Below, piece after piece: positions 58,815 through 62,348 of a DNA stretch of 64,000 bases. Both the position numbers and the translations under genes were made by a program. The stretch's first letter is position 1, and each line of letters starts with the position of its first letter. This DNA comes from Phycisphaerales bacterium (GTDB lineage: Bacteria; Planctomycetota; Phycisphaerae; Phycisphaerales; UBA1924): positions 1 through 64,000 of the forward strand of contig JALUWX010000010.1 of NCBI GenBank assembly GCA_027019265.1, given 5' to 3'. Below the pieces are notes generated by a model that worked only from the letters and a program-made list of their open reading frames with translations, ran no database searches and was not told where the DNA came from.

Positions 58815-59483
58815 ATGGTCTCGATCGGTCAACAATCCCGCATGAAGCCCCTGGTGCGCCAGTCCGACGCGCTCGAACACACCACGACGATCGCGCGTGA
58901 TGTCAGCGCCGTCCTGCGCCCCGGAGACACGATCCGTCTTGTCGGGGACCTGGGCGCGGGGAAGACCACCTTCGTCCGTGCGCTGTGCGCGGAGCTCGGG
59001 GTCGATCCGAGCGAGGTCTCCTCCCCCACCTTCGTGCTCATGCACGTCCACGAACGCAAGAACAAAGCCCCGATCGCGCACCTCGACTGCTACCGACTCA
59101 GCGACGACGACGAGCTGGGTGCGCTCGGGACGGACGACCTCATCGAGCAAAGCGCCATCTTCCTCATCGAATGGCCGGACCGCGCCCCGGACCTCGCGGA
59201 CCCCGAAACCTCGTGCACAATCACGATCGAACACGCCGGCGAAACCTCGCGCGTCTTCACAATCGCTCCACCTCCCTCGTGGCGCGATCGTCCCGAATAC
59301 GGCGCGCTCCGGACCCGCGGACCCGCGAAATGCCCCGCAACGGGCGCTCCCGTCCACCCCGAGTGCCCGAGCTGGCCCTTCAGCTCCGACCAAGCCCGGA
59401 TGAGCGACCTCCACGGGTGGCTCACCGAGCGCTACACGATCTCGCGCCCCATCGAACAAGCGGACCTCGAACAGGGCGAGTGA
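58815..59483 (+). CDS. tsaE: TsaE tRNA threonylcarbamoyladenosine ATPase with YacG-like tail
   Basis: A 222-aa protein. Residues 12-150 are TsaE, the ATPase needed for t6A37 modification of ANN-decoding tRNAs: Walker A VGDLGAGKTTFVRAL (Lys50), SPTFVLMH, HLDCYRL and FLIEWPDR. The C-terminal 50 residues (171-222) align with YacG (a zinc-binding gyrase inhibitor): AKCPATGAPV, then WPFSSDQARMSDLHGWLTERY, in place of C-x2-C ... PFC-x3-C ... DLG-x-W. Three of four zinc cysteines are replaced (Thr, Ser, Ala), so metal binding is lost. ATG 58842 is a shorter alternative start. It stands alone between serA and the exbB unit. Confidence 0.92.
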   Translation: MVSIGQQSRMKPLVRQSDALEHTTTIARDVSAVLRPGDTIRLVGDLGAGKTTFVRALCAELGVDPSEVSSPTFVLMHVHERKNKAPIAHLDCYRLSDDDELGALGTDDLIEQSAIFLIEWPDRAPDLADPETSCTITIEHAGETSRVFTIAPPPSWRDRPEYGALRTRGPAKCPATGAPVHPECPSWPFSSDQARMSDLHGWLTERYTISRPIEQADLEQGE

Positions 59484-61868: not shown

Positions 61869-62348
61869 TCAGCTCTCCGAACTCGTGACATAGATCTGGA
61901 GCCGATGACCCTCGGGCTTGAGCCCGCGCTCGGCGCAGAGCTTGTCGCGTAACACGATCAGCTCCGGGATCTCCGCGCTCTCCACGTCCCCCGTATCGAC
62001 ATGGATAATCAGGGTCGATCCGCGCTTCCCCATCGAGAGCTGATAGTGCGACTGGTCCCGATCGAACAGCACCTGCTGGATGATCCTGGACTGTTCGAGG
62101 AGCTTGAGGGTCCGGTACACCGTCGCTTTCGACACCCGGTGCCCGCGCGATTTCATCGTCTCGAGCAGGGTGTCCGCTTCGAAGAGCCCATCGATCTCGA
62201 TGATCGTGTCGAGGATCGCCGCGCGTTCGGGGGTGTACTTGAGCCCTTCCTCCTTGAGGGTGCGCCGGAAAACGGCGCACAGGGGCTCGATGAGCGCATC
62301 ACGCTCCGATTGAGACATCGAGTTCGATTGGATCGGTTCCAGCGCCAT
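61869..62348 (-). CDS. Fur-family regulator lacking all usual metal ligands
   Basis: A 159-aa Fur/PerR-type protein. The winged-helix part is normal (YTPERAAILDTII, GLFEADTLLETM, SKATVYRTLKLLE). The metal sites are not: the HHxHL block is KRGSTL, the CxxC pair is absent (III-HVDTG), and the usual His of GHFEAD is Leu54. Only His148 (GHRLQIY) of the family ligands remains. The length is normal. It may respond to something other than metal, or act constitutively. TAGAAT lies eight bases before the ATG, and divergently a GT-C-like membrane gene starts 56 bases away. Confidence 0.9.
   Translation of the reverse strand: MALEPIQSNSMSQSERDALIEPLCAVFRRTLKEEGLKYTPERAAILDTIIEIDGLFEADTLLETMKSRGHRVSKATVYRTLKLLEQSRIIQQVLFDRDQSHYQLSMGKRGSTLIIHVDTGDVESAEIPELIVLRDKLCAERGLKPEGHRLQIYVTSSES

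Follow-up and report, generated by a model that had tools for sequence, protein, structure and literature searches.

Layout of the fusion gene and its domains

The stretch of DNA analysed here (the window, 64,000 nucleotides of a Phycisphaerales genome) carries near its end, at positions 58815–59483 of the forward strand, an open reading frame of 222 amino acids without in-frame stops, in which TsaE is followed by a tail resembling the gyrase inhibitor YacG. The features of this gene are as follows; 'degenerate' denotes fusions whose YacG part has lost the zinc site, and 'intact' those with all four cysteines.

58815..59483, + strand: whole fusion gene, TsaE with YacG-like tail (open reading frame; fusion kept in 70 related loci; AlphaFold2 model)
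58872..59252, + strand: TsaE domain, residues 20–146 (PF02367, 2e-34; TIGR00150; motifs; Foldseek)
59265..59327, + strand: linker, residues 151–171 (start codons absent; crude pN/pS 0.273, looser than both domains)
59328..59468, + strand: YacG-like domain, residues 172–218 (PF03884; tail model against 4tma_I)
59331..59333, + strand: Cys173, the sole retained zinc ligand (45 of 45 degenerate tails)
59340..59342, + strand: Thr176, at the position of the second zinc cysteine (Thr or Ser in 43 of 45 degenerate tails)
59382..59384, + strand: Ser190, at the position of the third zinc cysteine (tail alignment)
59394..59396, + strand: Ala194, at the position of the fourth zinc cysteine (Ala in 42 of 45 degenerate tails)
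59418..59420, + strand: Trp202, corresponding to the GyrB-inserting W40 of E. coli YacG (alignment to the YacG of 4TMA; 45 of 45 degenerate and 26 of 26 intact fusions)

The TsaE half exceeded the cut-offs of both PF02367 (118.8 bits, 2e-34; cut-off 26.6) and TIGR00150 (91.1 bits; cut-off 60.1). Its motifs are intact, namely the Walker A sequence GDLGAGKTT as well as SPT, H.D and EW, and residues G47, G49, K50, T51, S70, P71, T72, H89, D91, E119 and W120 are invariant among 59 aligned fusions. With PF03884, the YacG family, the whole protein scored 23.9 bits (3.5e-5), slightly below the cut-off of 25.5 bits, and the tail alone 27.9 bits (1.9e-6), which is above it, as was the tail in a six-frame search of the genome (26.8 bits). 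The NCBIfam YacG models also matched the tail (7e-6), but far short of their equivalog cut-offs. A profile search retrieved 4TMA (5.5e-5) and 1LV3 from the PDB, and a direct phmmer search of the tail against the PDB gave no match. The preliminary description of this locus, made from the DNA letters alone, had proposed a TsaE fused to a YacG-like tail that keeps the PF-x-S and DLxxW framework and has three of its four zinc cysteines replaced by Thr, Ser and Ala. All of this agrees with the present results: the four-cysteine site CxxC...CxxxC is absent and its positions read C173, T176, S190 and A194. Judged by its sequence, the tail is thus a zinc-less YacG-related domain rather than a canonical zinc-binding YacG.

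The stretch between residues 121 and 173 of the window protein is free of ATG, GTG, TTG and CTG codons, and the tail must therefore be made solely as a part of TsaE; a free YacG from an internal start was thereby ruled out for this gene. Elsewhere a start codon does occur somewhere in 30 of the 45 degenerate and 18 of the 26 intact fusions, so that an internal start is possible there. The two further YacG matches in the six-frame search of the window genome (12.9 and 11.5 bits) were at noise level, and the TsaE tail is the only YacG of this assembly, which is 91.5% complete.

AlphaFold2 modelled the whole fusion, from 59 aligned fusions, with a mean pLDDT of 92.9 and a pTM of 0.86, and the best Foldseek match of its TsaE part was 6s84_E (4e-14), which is TsaE in the TsaBDE complex of T. 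maritima. The tail modelled alone from 32 sequences (pLDDT 91.9) had as its top Foldseek matches all four YacG chains of the gyrase-bound structure 4TMA, with probabilities of 0.95–1.00 (4tma_I 1.00), the weak E-values of 0.07–0.4 being due to the shortness of the domain. VIA-align superposed it on 4tma_I with a Z-score of 6.3 (2.4 Å over 45 residues), the next entry reaching 3.0. The models support a YacG fold for the tail; as the predictor ignores metals, they speak for relatedness and frame and not for stability without zinc.

Distribution and conservation of the tail among relatives

The window genome and 100 relatives were searched with the fusion protein and a YacG profile, and the loci were classified by script. 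A separate yacG with zinc site was found in 20 genomes (one showing an alignment gap at the first cysteine), a fused YacG with four cysteines in 26, and a fused YacG without the site in 45 including the separately fetched locus L006, while six genomes had no YacG. The window's architecture thus recurs in 44 further genomes. All 45 zinc-less fusions belong to the window's family (f1), and every member of its genus in which the gene was found is among them. Zinc-less copies occur as fusions throughout; among the separate yacG genes there is none. The YacG-profile search detected no second, intact yacG in the degenerate genomes, and the notion that such a copy had made the tail redundant was rejected.

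Where both genes are present and separate, yacG lies directly 3' of tsaE on the same strand (19 of 19 loci), and the two frequently overlap by 4 nt or stand only a few bases apart, an arrangement from which a fusion would easily arise by loss of the stop-codon. Outside the order, no tsaE was found within about 1.5 kb of yacG in the phylum's best 30 YacG loci and three class-level loci, and the pairing looks specific to Phycisphaerales. Of 294 Planctomycetota genomes, 182 had a YacG scoring above the Pfam cut-off; the phylum-wide matches were mostly short open frames with four cysteines. TsaE proteins of genomes with a separate yacG or with none end about 10–32 residues past the domain match and bear no such domain, which rules out that the window tail is an ordinary TsaE C-terminus. 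A few fusions appear eroded: in G028 (L089) the sequence after the TsaE linker no longer matches YacG, and G045 (L079) and G055 (L101) have a shortened segment after the helix of the domain.

The likeness to YacG goes beyond chance, as the architecture recurs in these genomes, all 32 degenerate tails scanned gave a clear match to YacG only, and hhalign aligned the degenerate and intact YacG profiles end to end (55 columns, probability 99.8, E 1.7e-28). The tails of the degenerate fusions had a mean pairwise identity of 0.545 and their TsaE parts one of 0.486; the corresponding values in the four-cysteine fusions were 0.488 and 0.476. Pooled over close pairs of the genus, the tail had a pN/pS of 0.167, against 0.165 in TsaE and 0.273 in the linker, these being crude counts from non-independent pairs with partly saturated synonymous sites. 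Besides Cys173, the Thr or Ser at 176 and Ala194, the degenerate consensus comprises G177 (40/45), V180 (44/45) and E192 (38/45), with P188, F189, D198 and Trp202 invariant; position 187 is aromatic in all 45 tails, being mostly Trp, as against mostly Phe in the intact set. Since the tail is as constrained as TsaE and has its own sharp consensus and invariant positions, it is to all appearances a working domain rather than a remnant in decay. Decay into a pseudodomain was rejected on the pN/pS value and on a tail identity at or above that of TsaE. The word 'decayed' in the preliminary description accordingly holds for the metal site and fails for the domain.

To count the losses of the site, a GyrB tree (69 rows, quick search, SH-aLRT support only) was used instead of the TsaE tree, which with 135 columns was too weakly resolved (7 changes). 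On the GyrB tree the zinc site requires two changes and the fused versus separate state seven. The two zinc changes arise because the four-cysteine genomes G052 and G038 adjoin G055 and G024, the latter retaining the first and fourth cysteines; two losses, or one loss with one regain by transfer, both fit. As read from this tree, tsaE and yacG were evidently fused (or split) several times; the zinc ligands were evidently lost about once in one large clade of f1, followed by strong purifying selection. The gyrB gene of G018 (L161) is broken between frames and has a branch of 1.63 beside a near-identical relative, probably through an assembly frameshift.

Zinc sites of ribosomal proteins and the gyrase partner

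The only bL31 (L221, 1501–1695, minus strand; G000:C60) and the only bL36 (L222, 1501–1614, minus strand; G000:C22) of the window genome have likewise lost their zinc ligands. Among the relatives, 71 bL31 and 70 bL36 sequences were surveyed, with the zinc columns marked by the E. coli sequences. The bL31 site was missing in every genome of f1–f4 examined, including those with a four-cysteine YacG. All 13 f1 genomes with a four-cysteine YacG have kept the CCCH site of bL36, as have many degenerate genomes; it is gone from the window's genus and from G037, G043, G044 and G053. These states imply that on the line to the window the site was lost from bL31, then from YacG and then from bL36. In f2 and f4, where the bL36 site is lost and that of YacG kept, the losses are seen not to be strictly coupled. 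Over the relatives as a whole, bL36 is zinc-less in several distinct groups, and the zinc ribbons went step by step. Working zinc-free forms of bL31 and bL36 are known (PMC5912738, PMC7363858). The loss of structural zinc with retention of the fold explains the missing cysteines better than a new role, and with bL31 and bL36 zinc-less in the same genome the YacG domain is best seen as one more relinquished structural zinc site. That all 45 zinc-less cases are fused suggests that attachment to TsaE may help to hold the zinc-free fold, these cases representing only one or two events.

At 61869–62348 on the minus strand the window encodes a regulator of the Fur family (PF01475, 1.7e-21) that lacks the usual CxxC pairs; many relatives within the order have a homologue, likewise devoid of them, next to tsaE(-yacG). 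As the pairs are lacking across the order whatever the state of YacG, this neighbour was dropped as a sign of recent zinc loss.

E. coli YacG touches GyrB with its zinc-finger part, via a critical Trp, and extends with its C-terminal part to GyrA, blocking DNA (PMC10886550). The pocket that receives residue 40 of YacG includes GyrB F513 (PMC5507300); residue 40 is given there as F40 and is Trp in the aligned 4TMA sequence. In the degenerate tails the C-terminal stretch is conserved as well, with R211 and D217 each present in 40 of 45. GyrB F513 was found in 66 of 66 GyrBs whatever the state of YacG, and the window genome has one match to the GyrB C-terminal part, of the E. coli-like type. A co-change in GyrB accompanying the zinc loss was sought and rejected, F513 being unchanged and the few differences between groups looking like lineage drift. 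At the level of sequence, the retention of Trp202, R211, D217 and F513 favours a gyrase role kept by the tail.

Function of the zinc-less domain

The domain resembles E. coli YacG (PF03884; 4TMA, 1LV3) in its profile, its fold, the PF-x-S and DLxxW motifs, the GyrB-inserting Trp and one zinc cysteine. It differs from this free 65-amino-acid protein in forming the C-terminus of TsaE and in lacking three of the four ligands, and its C-terminal segment reads (S)RPIEQxDLEQ. With TsaE (YjeE/YdiB; PF02367; 6S84, 6N9A, 5NP9) the window protein shares a complete ATPase domain with conserved motifs, whereas none of these structures has a C-terminal YacG domain. Zinc-free (C−) bL31 and bL36 offer a parallel in that structural zinc ligands were lost while fold and role stayed; these are usually paralogues made under zinc limitation (PMC5912738, PMC7363858), unlike the YacG of the window, which is a sole and constitutive domain from a family of gyrase inhibitors. 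In a review, YacG is presented as a proteobacterial zinc protein that occurs free (PMC10886550). In the open-licence literature we found no paper on a TsaE-YacG fusion, the co-mention of both names coming from an unrelated genome comparison.

We consider it somewhat probable that the gene encodes a zinc-independent YacG domain on the C-terminus of TsaE that most likely still regulates DNA gyrase. Small residues at the former ligand positions, the aromatic residue 187 and packing against TsaE would together replace the zinc ion; Trp202 would still insert beside F513 of GyrB, and the C-terminal segment would still reach the DNA gate, limiting gyrase in the way known from E. coli. Tethering would tie the amount or the place of the regulator to that of TsaE, and the loss of zinc would belong to a broader abandonment of structural zinc sites across the order. 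The TsaE half itself need not have changed, because its domain is complete and TsaC and TsaD (L213, G000:C112:6313-7227) are present in the genome. PF00814 matched a single place there, TsaD, and a separate TsaB was not found with this profile. Against a gyrase role, the conservation of Trp202 and F513 could instead be structural, and the steady pairing with tsaE across the order may be a sign that TsaE itself is of importance.

That pairing or fusion is also what would be expected if the domain had left gyrase for t6A synthesis, packing on TsaE and tuning its ATPase or its binding to TsaD/TsaB, the zinc site being lost because only the packing surface still counted. The exclusive occurrence of the zinc-less copies as fusions and the high predicted pTM of the two-domain model (0.86) are in line with such a role. 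We nevertheless regard it as rather unlikely, as the gyrase-facing Trp and the C-terminal segment are retained, the zinc loss is accounted for by the general trend, and TsaE, as judged by gene presence, does without the domain in the six genomes lacking YacG and the 20 with a separate gene. The preliminary description had suspected recruitment for a new role tied to t6A synthesis or to gyrase; retention for a purpose is borne out by a purifying selection equal to that on TsaE and by the YacG-like model, while the new role is disfavoured by the persistence of the gyrase-facing residues and of F513, and is not needed to explain the loss of cysteines given the zinc-less bL31 and bL36. Its interpretation is in all partly supported.

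Both functions might also be joined, the fusion coupling t6A synthesis to gyrase in such a way that the gyrase-binding face is hidden or exposed according to the nucleotide state of TsaE or to the position of TsaE within TsaBDE. Seven changes between fused and separate states among neighbours that stay together, and the equal constraint on both domains, would suit such a coupling, yet adjacent operon genes whose ends overlap are readily fused even when nothing ties their functions together, and we think it improbable. A further reading, in which a gyrase-inhibitor domain was rebuilt in metal-free form after fusion to TsaE and now links t6A synthesis, and with it the state of translation, to supercoiling, has in our view a slim chance of being correct. 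The least credible reading is that YacG function went with the zinc site and that the tail is a vestige carried along on TsaE: the missing site, G028 without a YacG match and the shortened tails of G045 and G055 are what it would predict, but it is contradicted by the low pN/pS of the tail, by its identity over 45 species and by its invariant positions.

YacG is thus common in Planctomycetota; in one order it is linked with tsaE, and one clade has it in zinc-free form. The series from separate genes through fusions with zinc to fusions without it presents metal-site loss with a retained fold in graded form, and the zinc-free clade provides a natural test of the need for zinc in gyrase inhibition. 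If the tether matters, t6A synthesis would be joined to supercoiling, and such a link, if true, would be a route of control so far undescribed.
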